Assembly (NCBI GenBank): GCA_032622095.1 | Contig: CP136061.1 | Span: forward strand, 20,710,991 to 20,774,990 | DNA: 64,000 nt | Source of the DNA: Siphonodentalium dalli | Lineage: Eukaryota; Mollusca; Scaphopoda; Gadilida; Siphonodentaliidae | Direction of reading: 5' to 3' | Part shown: positions 24,201 to 57,200 of the stretch, piece by piece | How the letters are laid out: each line of letters starts with the position of its first letter | How positions within the stretch are numbered: the stretch's first letter is position 1 | Notes under the pieces: generated by a model | Database searches by the model: none | What the model saw: only the letters and a program-made list of their open reading frames with translations | What the model was told of the DNA's origin: nothing | Position numbers and translations under genes: made by a program

Positions 24201-27200
24201 ATTCACAGCATATGAACTCCACTATATTCTCATCGATTTATCCTCTACAAAAGCGTCAAAGCATAAAAATAAAGGACCATAATTATGATAAAAGAATTTC
24301 ATCATAGATTAATAGAATCATCTGCGACATTGCCACATCAAAGTACATGTACAACCTTTTAAATTGACATCAAACACAGTCATAGACTCGAAATCCATTG
24401 CGATGACCTATCAACTTACACAGGGCCAACTGTCTTATTCGCTCTTAGTTCTTTCTCAGACTGCTGGATCGCTTCCTCCAAAATATCGATGTACACGTCA
24501 GGAGATAAATTAATTGTCTGCTTCTCAGCTTCCTTCACGGCAGCCTCCACAAGAGCAATGACTTCCGGATGTGTCTCATCAACAATGACCTCTGCAGGCT
24601 TTGAGTCATCAGCCACTGAGGGTGCAGCCGCATTAGAATTGTCATCGATGGCATTTTCTGCTGTTTCACCATCTATAAAGGAAGAATATATATGTCAGCA
24701 TTAGGCAGATGTTAAAGACAACCGCGCCACCCAAATCAGGCTTATGTTAAACACAACCGTGACACCCAAATCAGGCTTATGTTAAATGCAACCGCGCCAC
24801 CCAAATCAGGCTGATGTTAAACACAACCGCGCCACCCAAATCAGGCTGATGTTAAACACAACCCCACCACCCAAATCAGGCTGATGTTAAACATAACCCC
24901 ACCACCCAAATCAGGCTTATGTTAAATGCAACCGCGCCACCCTAATCAGGCTGATGTTAAACGCAACCGCGCCACCCAAATCAGGCTTATGTTAAATGCA
25001 ACTGCGCCACCCAAATCAGGCTGATGTTAAACACAACCGCGCCACCCAAATCAGGCTGATGTTAAATGCAACCGCGCCACCCAAATCAGGCTGATATTAA
25101 ACACAACCATGCCACCCAAATCAGGCTGATGTTAAATGCAACCATGCCACCCAAATCAGGCTGATCTTAAATGCAACTGTGCCACCCAAATCAGGCTGAT
25201 CTTAAACACAACCGTGCCACCCAAATCAGGCTGGTAATAAACACAACTGCGCCACCCTAATCAGACTGTTAAATGCAACCATGCCACCCAAATCAGGCTG
25301 ATATTAAACACAACCATGCCACCCAAATCAGGCTGATGTTAAATGCAACCATGCCACCCAAATCAGGCTGATGTTAAATGCAACCATGCCTCCCAAATCC
25401 GGCTGATGTTAAATGCAACCATGCCACCCAAATCAGGCTGATGTTAAATGCACACACCAACGAAACATTCCACCTCTGGATCGGCTAGCTCTGAGTTTAG
25501 TTCAGTTCCTAAAAATCACACTATAAAGTATCATTCACATATATTTTACTGAGTTTGTAGACACATTTCATCATGACGCTCATGTATGAATCAGAAATTT
25601 GAATCAGAAAATGGGTATGTTCGATTGCAGCTCAGTGCAAGTTTGTATAAAAATATACCGCAATTATTTAGTACTGATTATAAGTTTTTCCGACATATAA
25701 AACGTGAATAACAAGGTTGCATGCATGGGTACACAGAACAATGGTCGCACGCACGGGTACACAGAACAATGGTCGCACGCACAGGTACACAGAACAATGG
25801 TCGCACGCTCGGGTACACAGAACAATGGTCGCACGCACGGGTACACAGAACAATGGCTGCACGCACAGGTACACAGAACAATGGTCGCAGGCCTGAGAAA
25901 CAGGAAATTATTTTGCGTGGCCTAACCAGACTTTAACCTGTTGAACTACTAATTCTAATCAACTTACCAGATTTTTCAGCATTTTCATCGGCATTCTCTT
26001 CAACCTCTGTTGGCTTTTCTTCACTATCTCCTTTATCTGCTGTTGTTTCATCACCATCTGTAGTTGTCTCCTCCTTACTTTTATCAGCCTCTGCCTTAGC
26101 TTTAGCTAAAATGCGAAGACAACTTGCTGATATACAGAACTGTGGAGAAACTGTTAAGTCAAGATCAACTGAAGCAAAGCAATCTGTTTTACACGCACAG
26201 TTGATCATTTTTGATGGCATCTACTCTTTAACCCTTTCATGGCAGGAGCTGCACTGGTGCAGCTTTAAAGACCCTGTGCCACTGTATTAATCTCTTTATT
26301 CCCAAATGTTAGGCCAATGTATTCTCTTATATATGCAAGGCTCCCTATGGGAGACTCGCATATATAAGAGAATGCATTGTCACAGGGTTTTCGAAAAATT
26401 TCAGGAAGCTCCATGCAGTCAAAGAAGGGTTAAAACTTTTAAAGTTGAGTCAAGACACGATCTGTGAAGTAAGATTGTAAATATTGTAATCTCAATTATC
26501 AAAGAAGATTGTCTTGACTGAATGCTTTAATTTTCATTGACCTAAAGTGTAGATACAACTCATAGAACTAATTGTCATCAATTAACGGTCACTTTTTAAG
26601 ATATTCTAGCATTATTTGAGATATCCTGGGCTTGTCAGCTTAGCCTCAGTGACACTGTCGGATACCTGTTTAGGTTCGGACATTCCAAGATGGCGGCGCC
26701 AACTAAATCAGATAAACGGTAAGTGTATATATTGTCTCCCAGCAGCAATCAACGACATCTTTCGGTGATACACCTTGAAACAGTTATGTAGGAATTTGTA
26801 TGCCCAACACATACGTAATATGCCTTTTGCATAACATGCATGTGAATTGTTGTATTTGGCGTGTCAAGTCGTCATAATTTTTCGAAATTTTATCGAGGCG
26901 GCGAAATGTTCGCTTTTTCGTATTTTTATGGCCCTGGGCTCATGCATCCGCAAATTTATGTATTGTTGTGGATAGATTAGGTCACCACACATCTTCGGAA
27001 TGCAAAACCGGCGATATTTTTATTGTCTAACTCCGAAAAACGACCTTTGAAAATTTCAAAATGTTCAGGTTCGGATTCGCAACATTCGCGATGATTTTGT
27101 TCAGGTTCAGACACAATTTTCGTTCAGGTTTGGACAAATATGGTTCAGGTTCGGACAATTTTAGTTCAGGTTCGGACGCATCAAAACCTGACCTATAAAT

Positions 27201-36200: not shown

Positions 36201-39200
36201 ATTTTTTCAAATATGAATAAAAATTCCAGAGTTGATTTCCAGAAGACTGTACCTTCCTCACTATCAGGGTCAACATCCCCATCTGGGGATTCCCCTTCAG
36301 CATCAAATTCGTTTTCTGCCTCAGCCGAAGCTAAAGCCAATGCTAAACAAACAGGAACGACATTGATCACATTTAGACTAATATATGTAGTAATAATTCA
36401 CAATTACGCTAATAAATCACATTTATGCTAAATAAATAAAATACTGTGTTCTCCAGCAACTTCCCCATCACCCCACAGCCTGGCACAGGGCATGAAATGT
36501 TCGGAAATTATTACCAATTACCACAGCTAGGGAACAGGTAGAACTATTTCTTACCTGTCACCTTAAAATTTTGCCTGTACATACCGTTATATGTAGGATC
36601 ATACATGTCTATGAGTAGTGGACAAATTTAATGATTTCATATGAATATCAATAATTTTATCACATTTATCATTGCTAGTACAACCAGTATAATTATTGTA
36701 AATTTTGAAATTTTTAGATTATCCACTAAAACTGAGAAATTAATTATCTCACCCAATTAACTCTTTCTCATTTAGAATTTAGGGATATTGGTGGGCAACA
36801 GACTAGATATGGTAAATTCCAGCAAATCAATCAGGAAATGTCAAACTCAGACTAAGAAATGTCTCAAATGTCAAGTGTACATTTCTATTTTCCGAGTTCA
36901 AAACTCTCTAATTTATCCAGAGTTAAAACTTTAGATAAGTTTATGTAGAGGATGTAATGTATAAACAGCAAAGGAGGATATATTGCATGGAAGATGGTAG
37001 GATTTTATTCCATATTAATAATTATCCATACACCCAGTCGCATCCGCTAATTTCTAGAATTCTTAGAAAAAATAAAAATACAAAGCTCCTTCCCCCATTT
37101 ATCCATATATAACAGCCTGAGAACACAGGCATTTGTTTTAATTGTCTGAGATACACAACATCAATAGATATATTTATACAAACAGCATTTATAGACAAAT
37201 AACAAGTATGCACACCAATTAAATGGCTAGTTAAACACTACTTGGTATAAAATAATATGTATTCAATGGCCGGGATTCCATTGAATACATGTGTCTCACG
37301 TCAATGGGTGTGGAATAATTTTTTTTATAATATACCACTTGCAGTATAAAAACATTTACAAGACATAAAAGAATTCTAACTTAACATCATTTTCTACTTT
37401 TTTTCTGTTGAAAAATATATGAAAACGAAAAAATGGTATATAAGTTATACCAATATAAAATACCAAAGAATATTAATAAAATATTAATAAATAAATTTTT
37501 GGTGTCCCTGTAAAACATCGAAACTATATGAAATAAATGCATAGGAAATTCAATATCAAACAAAATAGCATCTTTCTAGTGGCACGTCTTGTTCCAAATA
37601 TGTTACTTCATACACTAGTAAAATATAAATTAAAAGTAAACTAAGTTTTGTAAAAATTAGCCTGGAATGCTGAATGCATCTCTAATTATTAAAATATAGT
37701 TTAATGATAATTTACCACCTCCCTAGCCACACAGCTGAGCCACATGTTAATTATTATATAGATAGTTTGATGATAATTTACCTCCTTCCATAACCACATG
37801 TTAATTATTATATAGATAGTTTAATGATAATTTACCTCCTTCCATAACCACATGTTAATTATTATATAGATAGTTTAATGATAATTTACCTCCTTCCATA
37901 ACCACATGTTAATTATTATATAGATAGTTTGATGATAATTTACCTCCTTCCATAACCACATGTTAATTATTATATAGATAGTTTAATGATAATTTACCTC
38001 CTTCCATAACCACATGTTAATTATTATATAGATAGTTTAATGATAATTTACCTCCTTCCATAACCACATGTTAATTATTATATAGATAGTTTAATGATAA
38101 TTTACCTCCTTCCATAACCACATGTTAATTATTATATAGATAGTTTGATGATAATTAACTCCTTCCATAACCACATGTTAATTATTATATAGATAGTATG
38201 ATGATAATTAACTCCTTCCCTAGCCACATGTTAATTATTATATAGATAGTTTAATGATAATTAACTCCTTCCCTAGCCACATGTTAATTATTATAAAGAC
38301 AGTATGATGATAATTAACTCCTTCCCTAGCCACATGTTAATTATTATAAAGACAGTATGATGATAATTAACTCCTTCCCTAGCCACATGTTAATTATTAT
38401 ATAGATAGTTTAATGATAATTAACTCCTTCCCTAGCCACATGTTAATTATTATAAAGACAGTATGATGATAATTAACTCCTTCCCTAGCCACATGTTAAT
38501 TATTATAAAGACAGTATGATGATAATTAACTCCTTCCCTAGCCACATGTTAATTATTATAAAGACAGTATGATGATAATTAACTCCTTCCCTAGCCACAT
38601 GTTAATTATTATATAGATAGTTTAATGATAATTTACCTCCTTCCCTAGCCACATGTTAATTATTATATAGATAGTTTAATGATAATTAACTCCTTCCCTA
38701 GCCACATGTTAATTATTATAAAGAGAGTATGATGATAATTAACTCCTTCCCTAGCCACATGTTAATTATTATATAGATAGTTTAATGATAATTAACTCCT
38801 TCCCTAGCCACATGTTAATTATTATATAGATAGTTTGATGATAATTAACTCCTTCCCTAGCCACATGTTAATTATTATATAGATAGTTTAATGATAATTA
38901 ACTCCTTCCCTAGCCACATGTTAATTATTATATAGATAGTTTGATGATAATTTACCTCCTTCCCTAGCCACATGTTAATTATTATAAAGATAGTATGATG
39001 ATAATTTACCTCCTTCCCTAGCCACATGTTAATTATAAAGATAGTTTAATGATTATTTACCTCCTTCCCTAGCCACATGTTAATTATTATATAGATAGTT
39101 TGATGATAATTGACCTCCTTCCCTAGCCACATGTTAATTATTATATAGATAGTTTGATGATAATTGACCTCCTTCCATAACCTTAGGTTAATTATTACAA

Positions 39201-42200
39201 AGAGAGTATGATGATAATTAACTCCTTCCCTAGCCACATGTTAATTATTATATAGATAGTTTAATGATAATTACCTCCTTCCCTAGCCACATGTTAATTA
39301 TTATAAAGACAGTATGATGATAATTAACTCCTTCCATAGCCACATGTTAATTATTACAAAGAGAGTATGATGATAATTAACTCCTTCCCTAGCCACATGT
39401 TAATTATTATATAGATAGTATGATGATAATTAACTCCTTCCCTAGCCACATGTTAATTATTATATAGATAGTTTGATGATAATTAACTCCTTCCCTAGCC
39501 ACATGTTAATTATTATAAAGAGAGTATGATGATAATTAACTCCTTCCCTAGCCACATGTTAATTATTATATAGATAGTTTAATGATAATTTACCTCCTTC
39601 CCTAGCCACATGTTAATTATTATATAGATAGTTTGATGATAATTAACTCCTTCCCTAGCCACATGTTAATTATTATAAAGAGAGTATGATGATAATTAAC
39701 TCCTTCCCTAGCCACATGTTAATTATTATATAGATAGTTTGATGATAATTTACCTCCTTCCCTAGCCACATGTTAATTATTATATAGATAGTTTGATGAT
39801 AATTAACTCCTTCCCTAGCCACATGTTAATTATTATAAAGAGAGTATGATGATAATTAACTCCTTCCCTAGCCACATGTTAATTATTATATAGATAGTTT
39901 AATGATAATTTACCTCCTTCCCTAGCCACATGTTAATTATTATATAGATAGTTTAATGATAATTTACCTCCTTCCCTAGCCACATGTTAATTATTACAAA
40001 GAGAGTATGATGATAATTAACTCCTTCCCTAGCCACATGTTAATTATTATAAAGACAGTATGATGATAATTAACTCCTTCCCTAGCCACATGTTAATTAT
40101 TATAAAGATAGTATGATGATAATTTACCTCCTTCCCTAGCCACATGTTAATTATAAAGATAGTTTAATGATTATTTACCTCCTTCCCTAGCCACATGTTA
40201 ATTATTATATAGATAGTTTGATGATAATTGACCTCCTTCCCTAGCCACATGTTAATTATTATATAGATAGTTTGATGATAATTGACCTCCTTCCATAACC
40301 ACATGTTAATTATTACAAAGAGAGTATGATGATAATTAACTCCTTCCCTAGCCACATGTTAATTATTATATAGATAGTTTAATGATAATTGACCTCCTTC
40401 CCTAGCCACATGTTAATTATTATATAGATAGTTTGATGATAATTGACCTCCTTCCATAACCTTAGGTTAATTATTACAAAGAGAGTATGATGATAATTAA
40501 CTCCTTCCCTAGCCACATGTTAATTATTATATAGATAGTTTAATGATAATTAACTCCTTCCCTAGCCACATGTTAATTATAAAGAGAGTATGATGATAAT
40601 TAACTCCTTCCCTAGCCACATGTTAATTATTATATAGATAGTTTAATGATAATTAACTCCTTCCCTAGCCACATGTTAATTATAAAGAGAGTATGATGAT
40701 AATTAACTCCTTCCCTAGCCACATGTTAATTATTATATAGATAGTTTAATGATAATTTACCTCCTTCCCTAGCCACATGTTAATTATTATATAGATAGTT
40801 TAATGATAATTTACCTCCTTCCCTAGCCACATGTTAATTATTATATAGATAGTATGATGATAATTAACTCCTTCCCTAGCCACATGTTAATTATTACAAA
40901 GAGAGTATGATGATAATTAACTCCTTCCCTAGCCACATGTTAATTATTATATAGATAGTTTAATGATAATTAACTCCTTCCCTAGCCACATGTTAATTAT
41001 TACAAAGAGAGTATGATGATAATTAACTCCTTCCCTAGCCACATGTTAATTATTATATAGATAGTTTAATGATAATTAACTCCTTCCCTAGCCACATGTT
41101 AATTATTATATAGATAGTTTAATGATAATTAACTCCTTCCCTAGCCACATGTTAATTATTACAAAGAGAGTATGATGATAATTAACTCCTTCCCTAGCCA
41201 CATGTTAATTATTATATAGATAGTTTAATGATAATTAACTCCTTCCCTAGCCACATGTTAATTATTATAAAGATAGTTTAATGATAATTTACCTCCTTCC
41301 CTAGCCACATGTTAATTATTATATAGATAGTTTAATGATAATTTACCTCCTTCCCTAGCCACATGTTAATTATTACAAAGAGAGTATGATGATAATTAAC
41401 TCCTTCCCTAGCCACATGTTAATTATTATATAGATAGTTTAATGATAATTAACTCCTTCCCTAGCCACATGTTAATTATTATAAAGAGAGTATGATGATA
41501 ATTAACTCCTTCCCTAGCCACATGTTAATTATTACAAAGAGAGTATGATGATAATTAACTCCTTCCCTAGCCACATGTTAATTATTATATAGATAGTTTA
41601 ATGATAATTAACTCCTTCCCTAGCCACATGTTAATTATTATAAAGAGAGTATGATGATAATTAACTCCTTCCCTAGCCACATGTTAATTATTATATAGAT
41701 AGTTTAATGATAATTACCTCCTTCCCTAGCCACATGTTAATTATTATAAAGACAGTATGATGATAATTTACCTCCTTCCCTAGCCACATGTTAATTATTA
41801 TATAGATAGTTTGATGATAATTAACTCCTTCCCTAGCCACATGTTAATTATTACAAAGAGAGTATGATGATAATTAACTCCTTCCCTAGCCACATGTTAA
41901 TTATTATATAGATAGTTTAATGATAATTAACTCCTTCCCTAGCCACATGTTAATTATTATAAAGAGAGTATGATGATAATTAACTCCTTCCCTAGCCACA
42001 TGTTAATTATTATATAGATAGTTTAATGATAATTAACTCCTTCCCTAGCCACATGTTAATTATTATATAGATAGTTTAATGATAATTAACTCCTTCCCTA
42101 GCCACATGTTAATTATTACAAAGAGAGTATGATGATAATTAACTCCTTCCCTAGCCACATGTTAATTATTATATAGATAGTTTAATGATAATTAACTCCT

Positions 42201-45200
42201 TCCCTAGCCACATGTTAATTATTATATAGATAGTTTAATGATAATTAACTCCTTCCCTAGCCACATGTTAATTATTATATAGATAGTTTAATGATAATTA
42301 ACTCCTTCCCTAGCCCTTGTTAATTATTATATAGATAGTTTAATGATAATTACTCCTTCCCTAGCCACATGTTAATTATTATATAGATAGTTTATTGATA
42401 ATTAACTCCTTCCCTAGCCACATGTTAATTATTATATAGATAAGTTTAATGATAATTAACTCCTTCCCTAGCCACATGTTAATTATTATATAGATAGTTT
42501 AATGATAATTAACTCCTTCCCTAGCCACATGTTAATTATTATATAGATAGTTTAATGATAATTTAACTCCTTCCCTAGCCACATGTTAATTATTATATAG
42601 ATAGTTTAATGATAATTAACTCCTTCCCTAGCCACATGTTAATTATTATATAGATAGTTAATGATAATTAACTCCTTCCTAGCCACATGTTAATTATTAT
42701 ATAGATAGTTTAATGATAATTAACTCCTTCCCTAGCCACATGTTAATTATTATATAGATAGTTTAATGATAATTAACTCCTTCCCTAGCCACATGTTAAT
42801 TATTATATAGATAGTTTAATGATAATTAACTCCTTCCCTAGCCACATGTTAATTATTATATAGATAGTTTAATGATAATTAACTCCTTCCCTAGCCACAT
42901 GTTAATTATTATATAGATAGTTTAATGATAATTAACTCCTTCCCTAGCCACATGTTAATTATTATATAGATAGTTTAATGATAATTAACTCCTTCCCTAG
43001 CCACATGTTAATTATTATATAGATAGTTTAATGATAATTAACTCCTTCCCTAGCCACATGTTAATTATTATATAGATAGTTTAATGATAATTAACTCCTT
43101 CCCTAGCCACATGTTAATTATTATATAGATAGTTTAATGATAATTAACTCCTTCCCTAGCCACATGTTAATTATTATATAGATAGTTTAATGATAATTAA
43201 CTCCTTCCCTAGCCACATGTTAATTATTATATAGATAGTTTAATGATAATTAACTCCTTCCCTAGCCACATGTTAATTATTATAAAGAGAGTATGATGAT
43301 AATTAACTCCTTCCCTAGCCACATGTTAATTATTACAAAGAGAGTATGATGATAATTAACTCCTTCCCTAGCCACATGTTAATTATTATATAGATAGTTT
43401 AAAGACCAGCTGAATAATACAATTAATTTAGCTCCAAACATATCTAAATATGTCTTAACTCATGCTAAATAAGGTTTATAACATGTATCCTTTCCATTTT
43501 GTTCACATTTTTACAAAAAAGTACTATTTCCAGACATTTGAATAAAACGGCTTCTTTGTTTACAATAGTCATTTTTGAATCGGGTGTTTCCGTCGCGACT
43601 CGGAAATGACGTCACCGAGGGTACACAGACGGGAGAAATTTTATGCGCCGTTTTTAAAATCACGTATTTTAAAATCGTCTTTTTTTTATTGTTTTTTATT
43701 TTTTTGAAGAATAAAACGTATTCGTCGCTGCATGGCTGCAAACTGTAGCCATAAATGTTCAAGTGGCACAAGAATGAATGCAGCCATTCAACAACAGTGG
43801 ACGGCGTTTGTCCACAACCAGAGTTTGGAATGTACTGTCACAATACAGCTGCTTGTGTTCCAAGCACTTTGAAGAAGGATCTTTCACAAATATTGTGAAA
43901 TGCAAGCTGGGACATACAAAAGTGTGATTCACATTGTCAAACAAAATGTTATCTACGTGAATACCGGTACCAATAAACACCCATGCACTCACGGTCCTTG
44001 TGGTGGGGGTGGGGGGGGGGGGGGTATCAGTATAGTCTAGTAGACCTACGGCTACGTCGTAGTACATGGATCATAGTTCATACATGAGGATTTACTTTCG
44101 GCGATGTGTAAATCGTGACTTGTTCTACTCAAGCGTGAATACATAAATCGGCACCTTGACAATACAAAATGTCAGCTATGCATGACAATATGCAAAATTA
44201 AGCATGATTTACAAGGCTACCAATCAACAATCAGTGTAATATAAGTGACTGTTCTACGTTAATTCTAGTCTAACATGACGTAAACATCGATTAGAACCTG
44301 AACTTGAAATGTAATGATTCAATGAAAATCATTAGTAAGTCTACTCACCAGATTGAATGTTTCGAATAATTAAAATCCAATACGAATCACCAATGTATTA
44401 ATCCATTTGTGAAAGCATATAAATGAAATCAGACGAAAAGGTACCGCACTGCATCCACCGTGATTCCACGTGTTACGAGCTGTGGCGATCATGTCAGTTT
44501 GTCACGAATTTTCGCCAATATTTCCACCAACAAAACATTAATTCCTTGTATTCCAATCGAATTGTTCAGAGAAATTCTTGACGGTACTTCGAATTATATA
44601 CATGGCTACGAATTTATATGACTACATCAGTCATTAAGCAGTAACCGAGCATTAACAAACTGGTATTTGAACTATAAACACAAACAAATATTATGCAGGT
44701 GATGTGACCTATACATCTGACCTTACCTCGACGTCATACACGTGCGTGTGCATATCCATACTCGACAATAATTTGTCTAAAGTTGACTATGAAACACCTA
44801 CTATCGTAGAAGATAGATCAATTATGGAATTATGTTACCTTTTAACATGCCTTCAGTCCACTGCATGTATGGGTATTATTTTTAAAATAAGAACAGCAAT
44901 CGCGAGGGACTATTTTGTTTTTGCGAACGTAGCTTGCGTAAAATATCGTTCGATTTGTGATCAAAGCGCAGTACCGTAGGCCTCGTAAGTACTACGTTCG
45001 TCATATGCACAGGAACGCCCACATTTCCACCGAGTGTGGTAGATATATAGGCCCTAGATAGTTGGTCCGTGTGGAGATTGTGCGTTACTGGTCTTGATTC
45101 ATATGAAACAATAAATTGAATAAACATAATACATACTGAAAATCATATAAATACGTACGCCTTTTGCGGTTTTTGTTTTGTTGACAGATTGTCAAAAAAT

Positions 45201-48200
45201 GTGTTTTATATGATAATCTAAAGGCCATGCATGATACTGCATTTAGACTTCAGGTCAGTATCGGTACGTAGACAGCAGTTTGGAAATTCTTGATAGTATA
45301 AAATGTTTGATGTTTCACACTTACATGTATACCTATACCATTAGTGACAAGACATTCTCAATGAGAACTTGGGTGTCTATATAAAGCCAGTTGAAAAATT
45401 TAAACATAAAGAGCATTTAATTGGAGGATTATAGGGTCTACTAGTAATGGAATATATATGTCAAGCTTTTGCGGATTTCTGCTCACTATGTTCATGACTG
45501 ACTAGATGAAATAATTACATACCAACAAATCTAATACCCAGTATCGTGAATATCAAGTTAAAACATAATTGTTTATTTAATCATGGAGCGATCTACTTGT
45601 GATATGCAGTTTCTGCATAAATGGTGAAAGGATGTGCCCCCCCCCCCCCCCACCCGCAGTTAACTGCTTGACGTACACAACATAAGTTGAAAATTATACA
45701 CCACATACAGCCATGATACAGGCTGAACTGTCTAACTGTTTGAATTTCAATTCAGTTATTGTTGAGGATTGGGAAATGTGTTGACGTTTAGACCAACGTA
45801 CAGCAGCCTATCTTTCTACTTTTGGTCCGAAAGAGGGGGAACCGGTGCAAATGCATGCGATGATTTATTGTCGGATCGTCGGTCACCGGTCTCTCGCCGA
45901 TATGTGGAGGATCATTGTCATCAGGCTCGAATGCAGCAAGATCAAAATCATCTTTACAACGTTAGCGCTGACCTGCCATCGCCATTATAGCCGCACGTTG
46001 CCAATGACGCAAAGCAGAACTGTGCATTTGTGTTCCCTCCGTGACGTCATGTCACGTGCTCCTCCAGTAGCCATGTGCGCGCAGTGCAAAATGAAAACAA
46101 ATCTTCGGCGACTGTTTCGTTCCCAAGATATAAAAAATAATTGCAGGATATTTTGACGGGATTTTTTGCGGATTTGTGTTAAGGGGACTTAGATACACAC
46201 GGGATGATATATCAATACTCAAATTAGGTTACAGTTCAGCTGGACTTTAATGATAATTAACTCCTTCCCTAGCCACATGTTAATTATTATAAAGAGAGTA
46301 TGATGATAATTAACTCCTTCCCTAGCCACATGTTAATTATTATATAGATAGTTTAATGATAATTAACTCCTTCCCTAGCCACATGTTAATTATTATATAG
46401 ATAGTTTAATGATAATTAACTCCTTCCCTAGCCACATGTTAATTATTACAAAGATAGTATGATGATAATTAACTCCTTCCCTAGCCACATGTTAATTATT
46501 ATATAGATAGTTTAATGATAATTAACTCCTTCCCTAGCCACATGTTAATTATTACAAAGATAGTATGATGATAATTAACTCCTTCCCTAGCCACATGTTA
46601 ATTATTATATAGATAGTTTAATGATAATTAACTCCTTCCCTAGCCACATGTTAATTATTATAAAGAGAGTATGATGATAATTAACTCCTTCCCTAGCCAC
46701 ATGTTAATTATTATATAGATAGTTTAATGATAATTAACTCCTTCCCTAGCCACATGTTAATTATTATATAGATAGTTTAATGATAATTAACTCCTTCCCT
46801 AGCCACATGTTAATTATTATATAGATAGTTTAATGATAATTAACTCCTTCCCTAGCCACATGTTAATTATTACAAAGATAGTATGATGATAATTAACTCC
46901 TTCCCTAGCCACATGTTAATTATTATATAGATAGTTTAATGATAATTAACTCCTTCCCTAGCCACATGTTAATTATTATAAAGAGAGTATGATGATAATT
47001 AACTCCTTCCCTAGCCACATGTTAATTATTATATAGATAGTTTAATGATAATTTACCTCCTTCCCTAGCCACATGTTAATTATTATAAAGACAGTATGAT
47101 GATAATTAACTCCTTCCCTAGCCACATGTTAATTATTACAAAGAGAGTATGATGATAATTAACTCCTTCCCTAGCCACATGTTAATTATTATATAGATAG
47201 TTTAATGATAATTAACTCCTTCCCTAGCCACATGTTAATTATTATATAGATAGTATGATGATAATTAACTCCTTCCCTAGCCACATGTTAATTATTATAT
47301 AGATAGTTTAATGATAATTACCTCCTTCCCTAGCCACATGTTAATTATTATAAAGACAGTATGATGATAATTTACCTCCTTCCCTAGCCACATGTTAATT
47401 ATTATAAAGACAGTATGATGATAATTAACTCCTTCCATAGCCACATGTTAATTATTACAAAGAGAGTATGATGATAATTAACTCCTTCCCTAGCCACATG
47501 TTAATTATTATATAGATAGTTTAATGATAATTAACTCCTTCCCTAGCCACATGTTAATTATTATATAGATAGTATGATGATAATTAACTCCTTCCCTAGC
47601 CACATGTTAATTATTATATAGATAGTTTAATGATAATTAACTCCTTCCCTAGCCACATGTTAATTATTATATAGATAGTATGATGATAATTAACTCCTTC
47701 CCTAGCCACATGTTAATTATTACAAAGAGAGTATGATGATAATTAACTCCTTCCCTAGCCACATGTTAATTATTATATAGAGGATCTCACATGAGTTTCT
47801 ATTTTATACGGAATTTATCAACCGAGTTCACTAAATTCGATTTGAGCCGAGGTTTACCGAGGCTCAAATCGAATTTAGAGGACGAGGTTGATAAATTACG
47901 TATAAAATAGGACGAGTGTGAGATACCTTTTATCACATGATCAAATAAACCCGAAGCAACGCCAAATATTCATCGAAAACAACAATCATAAACTACAGCG
48001 ATCGCAAGTTATTTGAAGAACGCCTGACGTCATCGCACGCGCTGATATTAAACGTGTCTATTACCGATAATTATGAAACTGATTTTATGGCCAAATTATG
48101 TGATAAATAGATAGTTTGATGATAATTTACCTCCTTCCCTAGCCACATGTTAATTATTATATAGAGAGTATGATGATAATTAACTCCTTCCCTAGCCACA

Positions 48201-51200
48201 TGTTAATTATTATATAGATAGTTTAATGATAATTTACCTCCTTCCCTAGCCACATGTTAATTATTATAAAGACAGTATGATGATAATTTACCTCCTTCCC
48301 TAGCCACATGTTAATTATTATAAAGACAGTATGATGATAATTTACCTCCTTCCCTAGCCACATGTTAATTATTATATAGATAGTTTAATGATAATTTACC
48401 TCCTTCCCTAGCCACATGTTAATTATTATATAGATAGTTTGATGATAATTTACCTCCTTCCCTAGCCACATGTTAATTATAAAGATAGTTTAATGATTAT
48501 TTACCTTCTTCCCTAGCCACATGTTAATTATAAAGATAGTTTAATGATTATTTACCTTCTTCCCTTGCTTGTGCCTCAGCTTCCATTTGTTCCTTTATTT
48601 TGGCCTTGACTGTAGTAATGGCTTGCTCCGTTGCCTCATCTTTGGCTTGTTGTAGCACCTTATTTTTCTCCTCTTCTATTCTCGGTTTGATTAGTTCATC
48701 CATATTCAGCACCTGAGTTAAAGATCGAAAAATAAATCCAAATTCAGCACATATAAAATCGGCAATAAATACTGTTCAAGTAACATTCAATACACATATA
48801 TCAAGTGAGTTTCTTTGCACACATTTCATTATCCTTTTTTAGCTAGATACAGCAGACTAGAGTGAAGTTGCTGTTTTAGTCAAAATTAATCGCATGAAAT
48901 ATCATTGTATTGTGTAAATTTATTGATAATGTATATATGTTAATCTTTACGCCATGATGGCTGGTGAAGTTAACTTGAGTTAAATTGAAAAATCTCAACT
49001 GAATTTTGTTTCTTTCAAATACATAAGTTAAAGCATATCCAAACCAGATAATTAAACATCATGCTCTATACTAACCTTTGATCCATATTTCTCTGAGAGC
49101 TGTTGACAGAGTGTGCTTTTACCAGACATAGGCGGTCCCAAAACAGACATTTTACAGGGTGGTCTCGGCTGTGGGGGGTAACAAATAAGGTCGCGGATTC
49201 TTCATGAACTTCTCTAAAGCTTCTGCACTTGACATGCAATAGATTTTATCCAAGAAGCTGAAATAAAAATGAGTCATAATTACAACAAGAAGCCAAGCCT
49301 GCAAATAGTGTGTCTGTCATTCGCAGAATGAGGTCCCCAGAGGGTGAATTTAGTGATGCTATCCAGCACAGCGGGCTAGCATCATCAAATTCACCCTCTA
49401 TGAACCTCATTCTGCTTAGGCCTCAACTGCTAATTGAGACTAAGGATCAGAGTGATGTTGCCCAGTTGAAGTTGATGTTCACCCATTAGTCATTTTGTTA
49501 ACCCTTTACCCAACAAAACGGCCAAAAACGCCAAAATAAAGCTTCAACGGCCTAAAATATCTTCGGTCTGTCTCAATAACACCATACAAATATGGATATC
49601 ATTGGAACCGGTTCATTGACCACATTGTGTTGGTTACAGTTATGCCCTGTGCCAATGCATTCTCTTATATATGCGAGTCGACCATAGGTCGACTCGCATA
49701 TATAAGAGAATGCATTGGCCTATGGTCGACTCGCATATATAAGAGAATGCATTTGCACAGGGCCGTTCTGTTGGGTAAAGGGTTAATGCATTTTATCTTC
49801 AGCAAATTAGGAGACATAAAAACTGATTAGAAGGGAAAATTTAATTTAATTTAATTTGAAACTATAGATACCTCCCAGTGATGAGGCCCAAGCAGAATGA
49901 GGTCCACATACGGTGAATTTGGTGATGCTAGCCCACTGTGTGAGATAGCATCACTAAATTCACCCTCTGGGGACCTCATTCTGCAAATGACAGACAAACT
50001 ATTTCCAGGCTTGCAAGAGGCACTTCAGAAGTGATGTTGCCACCTCCTAGTATGTGTCCACAAAGGAGGTGGTGTCTGTGATATATGGAAAAAGGCTAAA
50101 TAGGTAACAATGAATTATTTTCGTAATCAAAAGCTAAATGCACTAGGGTTACAATCAACCAAACGATGTTCAGAAAGCAAAATGTGAAAAGAGCTCTTTA
50201 TCCTAGCAGAGTACGACATATAATCTATCACAATTTCCATGTAGAAATATGCTTGATCCATCATATGGCGAGCATCAGTTCAGGACATAGACTCAGTCAG
50301 GTGAAGAAAAGTTGAAAAAAGAACGATACTCAGTCGCTATCTTCAACCAACTACACAATAGTTCTATTTCTGCACTGATTTTCAGACAAATCAGCAAAGC
50401 GAGGGCAAACTGTCAAAAAGGATATATTAACCATTTCATTATAAGGGAGCTGAGCTGGTGAGCATTAAAGATCCTGTGCCAGTGCAATAACCTTGTACCA
50501 ATGCATTCTCTTATATATGCGAGTCTCCCATAGGTAGCCTTGCATATATAAGATAATGCACTGGCTTGCAAGGCGAAAGTATATATTGTTTGGCCTAGGG
50601 GAGACTCGCATACATAAGAGAATGCATTAGTACATGATTTTTGCAAAATTTCAGGAAACTCCAAGCATGGAAGGGCTAAAATGAAAAATCTAATTACCTA
50701 ACAGCAAATTCTGTTTTTCCAGGAGTAATGTTGCCCTCATACAGAGACACGGGACAGTTCTTGAGCCATCGACTTCTCCTCCAGCGGAACCGTGGACCAA
50801 CCATCTGTTTTGGAGCAAGAAACCTCATCAACTCATCGGTATCCACATCCTCAGGTAATTCTTCCTCCTCCGGGTCGTACAGCCGCTTTGGTACGGCAGC
50901 TGGTCTCAGAACAAAACATCCCAAACGCTGCATCACTTGCTGTAAGTTAAAATAGCAATACCCATTACCCAAAATATTAACCCTTTTATGACAGCAGCTG
51001 TGCTGGTGCAGCAAAAAAGATCATGTGCCAGTGCATTCTCTTATAGATGCGTATCTCCCATAGGGAGCCAATGTATTCTCTTATAAATATGCAAGACTAG
51101 AGAATGCATTGGCACAGGGTTTTCATGGAAGGGCTAAAGATGTGTATCTCTTTCTTGAACTTTCTGTCGAAAAAGGGTGATAACTCCACAAAAAGCTTGG

Positions 51201-54200: not shown

Positions 54201-57200
54201 TGCTGAGCATAGTGAAATTGTCATCAATTACAGTTCACTATATAAATTGTGATGTTATCCTATAACAGAATTTTACAAGTCTGTGAAACACATTTGATTG
54301 ACATATTTCCTTGTAAATAGATGAGCAGCATACACCACCATTCTTATGTGTAGACTGTTTGCAGTAATTAATTTTGGAGGTAAAATTTCAAACTTATTAA
54401 GGATTAATTCAGTTTGAATTAAGGGCTAAATATTTACCAATCCATGTTCAGGTGTCTTGATTTCTGATATGATACAACTGATATGATTGGTGTGTTCAGC
54501 AGTTTGATTGTCGTGAAATATATCCTTAAAATGGGCATACTGTGTGAGCACTGAACAATCAGTTAAAAACATTTAAATATGTGCACAATTGATATGCCTT
54601 TAAACTAACTAGCTGTAAGCCTGTAATTACCTCTTTGGGTTTTGGGGGAGGGTCATAAACATCCTTGGTGTAGAGATCGCCAGTGATTGATATGCCTTTA
54701 ACTAATTAGCTGTAATTAACCTCCTCCGTTTTTGGGGGAGGGTGTCGTAAACATCCTTGGTGTAGAGATCGCCAGTGATTGATATGCTTTTAATTAACTA
54801 GCTGTAATTACCTCTTTGGGTTTTGGGGGCGGGTCATAAACATCCCTGGTGTAGAGATCGCCAGTGATTGATATGCCTTCAACTAACTAGCTGTATTTAC
54901 CTCTTTGGGTTTTGGGGGCGGGTCATAAACATCCTTAGCGTAGAGATCGCCAGTGATTGGATCAATCTTCAACCCTTTCCTCCGTTTCTCCAGATCTTTG
55001 TCAGGAATCTGTTTCAAAAGATAAAATAAATTTATTATGCTTTTCTGTGAAACAGCGGATAATGGCTAAAAATTTATATCAAGTGGATAGCCATCAATCT
55101 AACGTACTGAGCAAACATGATTTTATTGTTTAAGTTTAACAATCAAAGGGTAAATTTTCTAGCGCAACTCTCAGTGACGTGTTTTGACGTGGACGCCTTT
55201 TCCTCAAAAACGTGATTTGCTGTGTTGATTTAAACAGTTAATATTTGCCCTTCATTTTGCTTATCATAACGTATTACTTCACAACATATTGGTATTTCGT
55301 GCTGATAGTCTCACTGTACCTAAACCTAAATCTTCTCCAAAAGGAATGTGTGCAAATAGCTTTTATTTGTCGGTATTCATAGTTGCTATTGCATTTAACA
55401 AAGAGAAAAAGACAAATCTGGAGCATAGTCTAAGCATCTACTAGTAGGTGCATCAGGGAGGAAATTGAAAACATGAAATAGGACAAAAATCCAATTTTTA
55501 TAAAGCATCAATAATAAAAGGCCACCTGGCCACAGTGTTCCCCAAAAATCTATCACCAGGATACCAAAATAATCGTCAAATTATAAGTCAACAAGGACCA
55601 TAACTCTGGTAAAAAAAAAAGGCGGATGGAACCCCCATTCTAACTTGACCTGTATTTCCATGTGGGCAATCCACATATCAATTTTGAAAATAATCAGATA
55701 ATTAAACTAAAGTTATCATCTGGAAAACCATCTGGGACGGATGTCGGATGGAAGGATGCACGGAACTGCTGATTTCTATACTTTTTGGGGGACAAATATA
55801 AATACTATAGATTCTCTCCTTGGAATTGTAATAAATGAGTTACATAACATGTTTGTCCAAAATAATAGCATCTTTCTAATAAAATAAATAATTCAAGATA
55901 CATTAATGGCTCCATAACTCCAGTTATAGCATCTGTCTGACATCAAACTGTTCAGCTGAAAAGATGTTAAAAAAATCAAATATGACATAAAAACTACACT
56001 CTAAATTCCAAACAATGTCAATTATATATATATTGCTGTCTCTCTAAATTGACAATAAAATACACCACAAACCCTCGCATGAATGATGAAATCTGGTTTT
56101 AGCTGGAAATTGTTGACCAGAGCCAGTTGATCTTTGATTGGCATGGTATCTTCTGATAAACAAGGGAAGTCATCCAAAATGTAACCTGTTGAAAAAAGAA
56201 AAGCGAGCAATTAATAATTGGAGGTGGAAAATTTATATCCAATATACCATGTTTTATGCATCAGAAGCTTTCTTAACAACATTTAATATAATTTTCTCCA
56301 CAATTACATAGATAAAAGTGAAAAATTATTTTCCATATGTATATCACACACACACATCTCATTTCTTCTTTCATATATTATTGCTGGATTTTCATGCCCA
56401 TATTTGTTGCTGGAGTTTCCTGTAGTAATTATTCCATAGAGCTTTTATATAGAAATGGACCAATCACTAGGCCCTGTTCACAAATTCAACTATAACAAGC
56501 TAAAAAATCCACAGAAAAGATCATGACATATTCAGAATGCACATGGGGGAAGGGGGGGGGGGGATATTGAACCAACTTGAGATCTGGTAGACTTGGTTAA
56601 AACAAATAGTTGGAAGGAATGAGGTGCCATATATAAATATACTAACCATGATGTGCAACCTCTGGTGAAGCGATTTTGTCCTCGATCATCTTTATGATCA
56701 TGTTCTCAGCAACAGCTTCACCTTTGGACAAAATCTCAATACAATTTCTGCCAAGTTCTGTCTGTTGCTCCATATTCTGCATAAGCAGGTCCGATGCTGA
56801 AATATAATATACATGTATGTAAGTACATGTACAAAAATATCAGAAATGCTTCACCAGAATTAAAAGATTGAAAATTATTTAATTTTGATATGATACAATT
56901 GAAATTGGCGAATAAAACTGCAAAACAATGATGTAAACATCTGATGCGTAGTTCAATTTAAATATCATGGTTTACAGGCATATATGATTTCACTACAATT
57001 TCGCTGAACATCACCAGCATTGCATAACCTTTAATTCCTTAATTCTCCTACCATTCAGTTTAAAAACTATATGGTACGCTGGAATATTCTATGTGCCACG
57101 TGTAAAGATGTTCTGATAATATATGCAGACAACAATCAGAGAAACACCCTACAGACTCCCATTCATCAATTTCTAGGAATATTCTGATAATAAGATCAAC

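Follow-up and report, generated by a model that had tools for sequence, protein, structure and literature searches.

An AK9 intronic minisatellite of about 145 units that copies the end of the adjoining exon and its 5' splice site

Introduction

How does a gene fare when the boundary between one of its exons and the following intron has been repeated many times within that intron? This question is raised by a stretch of 64,000 nt from the scaphopod Siphonodentalium dalli (hereafter the window), in which an exon of AK9 abuts a long tandem array whose units resemble the end of that exon. The locus amounts to a natural experiment on how a 5' splice site is chosen, because an identical copy of the true donor lies 51 nt farther on and some thirty near-copies are spread over 11 kb. 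We examined how the array is built, where it came from, why most of its units have lost the donor, and whether comparable arrays occur elsewhere in the same gene.

The host gene and its exon 11 junction

The host gene lies on the minus strand and was identified as AK9 from its best protein matches, all of which are gastropod AK9 (Patella, 55% across the whole query; Batillaria and Lottia, 70% and 67% across 44% and 49% of it, respectively). Our gene model was built from tblastn searches with gastropod AK9, splice sites, and reading frame. It comprises 16 exons within the window and 16 beyond it, numbered from the first one found; one exon is modelled without its start, and the interval from 21.8 kb to -1.4 kb may hold exons that the model lacks. 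A Pfam scan of one reading frame of the 5' part of AK9 returned 0 families.

Read on the minus strand, exon 11 closes at 48556 with GCAAGGGAAGAAG, and the intron then begins GTAAATAATC. Exons 11 and 12 join in frame (AREE-A-LALA) across the intron that carries the array. The coordinates of these and other features are collected in Table 1.

One irregularity was encountered upstream. A C6 run in exon 10 (49173-49178) holds one C too many, and past this run the exon is out of frame relative to five relatives (Batillaria, Patella, Lottia, Owenia, and Branchiostoma). The extra base is either a sequencing error or a real frameshift. If it is real, AK9 may be in decay, and any selection on the features described below would be relaxed.

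Table 1. Features of the AK9 locus, in window coordinates (a slash marks the exon/intron boundary)
Feature	Position	Strand	Details
AK9 exon 12	36253..36342	minus	Acceptor side of the array-bearing intron
Dispersed repeat copy	37356..37682	.	Bounds far end of array; unrelated to unit
Array, far block	37683..43402	minus	Last degenerate unit extends to about 37683
2844-bp insertion	43403..46246	.	Splits array; ends AGTCCAGCTGAA / TTCAGCTGGTCT; TTAA on both sides
Array, exon-side block	46246..48565	minus	Units mostly 53-54 bp; begins with last 10 nt of exon 11
325-bp insertion	47782..48106	.	Within a unit; TCTAT on both sides
Native 5' splice site	48550..48558	minus	AAG/GTAAAT; exon 11 to exon 12
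AK9 exon 11	48556..48712	minus	Acceptor ACTCAG; ends AGGGAAGAAG; tblastn, splice sites, frame
Exon 5 array	54621..54959	minus	Second junction-spanning array, at exon 5 donor; 89-bp unit, x3.8
Exon 17 array	-5239 to -1498		Donor at -1626; 150-bp unit, x25, 98% matches
Exon 23 array	-18371 to -18116		Donor at -18139; 122-bp unit, x2.1

Anatomy of the array

The repeated segment comprises the final 10 nt of exon 11, its donor, and 41 nt of intronic sequence. Starting at 48565, a 51-base stretch across the junction is identical at 51/51 positions to the following 51 bases, which form the first full unit. Ten of these bases are exonic, and within the exon the continuous match does not extend beyond AGGGAAGAAG. 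The preliminary description of this DNA had proposed that the 53-bp unit holds the exon 11 end together with its donor, and this identity across the junction bears that out.

The same description placed a giant minisatellite of about 145 copies at 37695..48560. The copy number stands: cutting at an anchor gave 146 segments, of which one, located within an insertion, was discarded; the other 145 units were classified between 48565 and about 37683. The array is nevertheless interrupted by two insertions and is not continuous. Tandem Repeats Finder (TRF) reported 53-bp blocks at 37738-43402 and 46246-47781, with rows of longer period up to 48565. Both blocks have a period of 53 with 93% matches, and their head-to-tail units fall within the roughly 10-100 bp size range of minisatellites. 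The larger, 2844-bp insertion (43403-46246) has short inverted ends, and its flanking TTAA is presumably a piggyBac-like target.

Long arrays can be assembled wrongly, and the extra C in exon 10 resembles a sequencing error, both of which might suggest that the copy number was inflated by an assembly artefact. We consider this very improbable. The 138 units under 60 bp comprise 29 distinct types in mixed order, and the two insertions carry target duplications. These features argue for a real array and limit the uncertainty to the exact copy number. Higher-order blocks of unit types are not in evidence, as the longest mixed block is 4 units and shuffles reach 6.

Origin of the repeated unit

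To locate other copies of the segment, all 2.23 Gb of the genome, in 9 contigs, were searched with a 23-nt pattern of exon end, donor, and intron, allowing up to 2 mismatches. Thirty-nine matches were found, and 39/39 lie inside this array; a reversed control pattern gave 4. Chance is therefore excluded as an explanation for the match to the exon. No copies of the junction segment outside the array were found in the 2.23-Gb genome that would indicate a dispersed satellite, a transposon-borne repeat, or an introner, and an origin of the unit as a satellite or transposon is rejected for this segment. Dispersed matches in the far flank were also considered as a transposon source of the array. This candidate was rejected when 16 other copies were aligned, because the sequence that they share begins at AGATG, outside the unit.

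The direction of copying was addressed with AK9 from 18 relatives, of which the 8 unmatched by the cutting anchor carry no weight. The presence of the exon's final 10 nt inside the repeat would also be expected if the array were the older partner and the exon end had been captured from it, with an array donor becoming the donor of the exon. In keeping with such a capture, Batillaria and Owenia have no R-E at the position of the exon 11 end. Patella, however, has R-E at this position (EAAREAELEA), and the Lottia model reads EAERE there before running into an apparent retained intron, although these are two species and few residues. Because R-E is common to the two limpets, this end of the exon probably predates the array. 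The confinement of the junction segment to this one place in the genome likewise speaks against capture, which we regard as having only a slight chance of being correct.

The 51/51 match, the 39/39 genome matches at this locus, and the similar limpet exon ends make it most likely that the array grew in situ by duplication across the exon 11/intron junction, with the exon side as the source. Seeding across this junction, as first suggested, is supported by a unit that ends 10 nt inside the exon and a junction part that was found nowhere else in the genome. The evidence that exon-like units are basal is equivocal. The unit beside the exon has 41 intronic bases identical to those of the junction, and it may therefore be a recent re-duplication rather than a relic. 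The unit at the far edge has two sites (AATTATC and TAATAATTA) in common with the interior and not with the exon-side units, and two exon-like units lie deep within the array, at 40190 and 39072.

Donor states across the array

To call the array 145 copies of a 5' splice site, as the preliminary description did, overstates the case, because GTAAAT is kept in just 33/145 units. These comprise 29 units with GGTAAATTATC (GTAAATT) and four with GGTAAATAATC (GTAAATA), a count that includes the native donor as well as the degenerate unit at the far end. The donor-dead form GTTAAT (GTTAATTATC) occupies 101/145 units, and the remainder carry GGTCAAT (6 units), GGTAATT (3 units), or one of two singletons. 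GTAAAT is taken as ancestral, since it is present in the functional donor and at both edges of the array.

The arrangement of these states is as had been proposed, with a mostly GTTAAT interior and edges that keep the donor. Intact donors form a run of 7 units on the exon side, native junction included, and a run of 8 units on the far side. Both run lengths were matched in 0/200000 shuffles, a test that ignores clustering. Rotation of the array reached the summed edge run in 16/145 cases, which is little informative since rotation treats the array as a circle, where the two edge runs meet. From the exon to the middle, the proportions of dead units are 1/7, 12/15, 13/13, 24/25, and 15/19, and from there to the far end they are 11/19, 10/19, 14/16, and 0/7, in bins that exclude the junction, the last unit, and any unit carrying an insertion.

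GTTAAT is two changes away from GTAAAT, and each of the one-step forms occurs in the array (GGTAATT in 3 units and GTTAAAT in 1). Live and dead donors both occur on three unit backbones, which needs either unit-to-unit exchange or repeated mutation. Within one unit, GTTAATTAT and ATAATTAAC are exact reverse complements of each other, and template switching at this inverted pair could produce the dead donor. A hairpin seems less likely as the cause of donor loss, given that single units fold no better than shuffles (7 sequences), and such a cause is not needed because both one-step intermediates exist.

Defective units had originally been suggested to be favoured because they do not compete with the true donor. 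Selection of this kind would account for the spread of a dead form to 101/145 units, and the stop added by use of any decoy would provide a cost. In the exon 5 array (Table 1), 1/3 downstream copies is also GTTAAT. The positions of the dead units point the other way. The decoys nearest the exon are the best competitors and should be cleared first, yet 1/7 of these units are dead, as are 0/7 of those farthest away, whereas the middle is mostly dead. Moreover, the sister array of 150-bp units keeps 25/25 strong donors, although the reading frame continues open there and use of these donors may be harmless. Selection against decoys is thus an unlikely driver of the spread.

Tandem arrays evolving neutrally usually show one variant spreading inside while others are kept at the edges, and interior homogenisation explains the donor states better than does selection for donor-dead units. 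The full account that we favour, and consider likely to be correct, would begin with one short tandem duplication that included the final 10 nt of exon 11, the 5' splice site, and ~41 nt of intron. With the upstream exon and the first donor left intact, the gene could have borne this event. Slippage or unequal exchange may then have raised the copy number to about 145. Neutral turnover would have carried donor-dead and other variants through the interior, whereas edge units, exchanging less, would have kept the old donor, and the array as a whole would have been tolerated. Comparable duplications at three further AK9 donors, described below, speak in favour of this account.

Consequences for splicing

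The intron does offer many decoy donors, as had been claimed, with GTAAAT in 33/145 units, native site included. Reading beyond the native exon 11 donor adds GK and then a stop, which means that use of a decoy would truncate AK9; a stop waits at use of any array donor. We infer that the first donor is the one used, and that the array is tolerated and without function.

Donor strength was scored with a human weight matrix, giving 4.66 for the native exon 11 donor, 3.78 for GAG/GTAAAT, and -5.91 for the dead form. The mean for 27 AK9 donors outside arrays is 2.97, and the four array-spanned donors score 3.78-5.12. A proposal that array-spanned donors are weak, with decoys needing enhancers, is rejected on this comparison. 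The same scores, with native and GAG/GTAAAT sites both above the mean, would favour a role for the decoys, in which array donors are used and yield truncated (poison) AK9 transcripts with consequences for expression. When two strong 5' splice sites are available, the intron-proximal one is often preferred, and the first decoy is identical to the native donor and sits 51 nt closer to the acceptor. Each decoy is accompanied by only 10 nt of exon, however, and would therefore be without most exonic enhancers. On balance, we think it improbable that the decoys play this role.

Relation to known systems

Minisatellites that bear donors are a known kind. In IFI6, a short tandem repeat at an exon end reportedly consists of units carrying splice donors that are used. 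The AK9 units likewise copy an exon end and its donor (51/51 bases, with GTAAAT kept in 33/145). They differ from the short IFI6 repeat and its used donors in that there are about 145 units of 53 bp, most of them donor-dead. What is new here is the scale of the array and its recurrence in the gene. In the literature searched, which left most subscription papers outside, no report was found of such an array in AK9 or any mollusc.

Ordinary intronic minisatellites and variable number tandem repeats (VNTRs) resemble the AK9 array in unit size, in the spread of variants, and in the preservation of variants at the edges. What sets the AK9 array apart is that its unit duplicates the end and donor of the exon next to it.

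Segments that contain AGGT are described in PMC4974935 as a source of introns when tandemly duplicated, with the Rogers model, ATP2A1, and a multiple duplication of 24 bp in fission yeast as examples. As in these examples, the AK9 segment carries splice signals and is tandemly duplicated, and its intact units contain AGGT. Unlike in intron gain, an existing intron appears to have grown in AK9. Two observations bear on intron gain at this site: exons 11 and 12 join in frame, and the Lottia model reads like a retained intron there.

Other tandem arrays in AK9

Tandem arrays cover 4/31 AK9 donors (exons 5, 11, 17, and 23) and 0/30 acceptors. The four donor arrays have units of 53, 89, 122, and 150 bp, with copy numbers ranging from 2 to about 145. 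At exon 5, the native GAG/GTAAAT is followed by copies with GTAATT, GTTAAT, and GTAATT. The exon 17 array retains 25/25 AAA/GTAAGT donors at spacings of 150 (20) or 149 (4), and is young. The frame from the start of exon 17 is open for 664 codons, and the 150-bp unit of this native GTAAGT array keeps frame in 20/24 steps; the array could add 50-residue blocks to the protein. At the native GTAAAT sites, read-through stops after GK, VNTAS, or VN. All three GTAAAT donors among the 31 are array-spanned (chance 4/4495, a pattern noticed post hoc).

These distributions were compared with a null in which 36 arrays were shifted rigidly, a procedure that lets arrays cover whole exons, which would not be tolerated in a functioning gene, and so is harsh on donors and acceptors. 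Acceptor cover fell below this null, with 0 seen against 7.0 expected (P 0.0012), and donor cover did not exceed it, with 4 seen against a mean of 7.2 (P for at least 4, 0.94). Four donors have an array edge within 130 nt upstream, compared with 1.28 expected (P 0.042, with a post hoc cut-off). This edge comparison alone points towards an excess of arrays at donors.

We raise, tentatively and with considerable doubt, a genome-wide rule in which arrays grow from the 3' ends of exons. Arrays spanning donors would be tolerated because the first donor and the whole exon win, and arrays spanning acceptors would not. The sister arrays at donors only make this a testable rule on which duplications are survivable and on how introns grow in repeat-rich genomes. 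If general, it would give tandem-repeat invasion of genes a direction and provide a ready experiment on choice among identical donors.

Two further arrays approach splice sites without covering them. A 19-bp unit in about 104 copies (-11990 to -10009) starts ~12 bp past an AK9 donor (exon end at -9997), which it excludes, and a 35-bp array of 21.5 copies (24703-25452) ends ~30 bp upstream of the uncovered acceptor of exon 14. Elsewhere in the genome, many near-alike myosin-head matches lie within ~1.3 Mb at C4:274219458-275508405, several with TAG inside the match.
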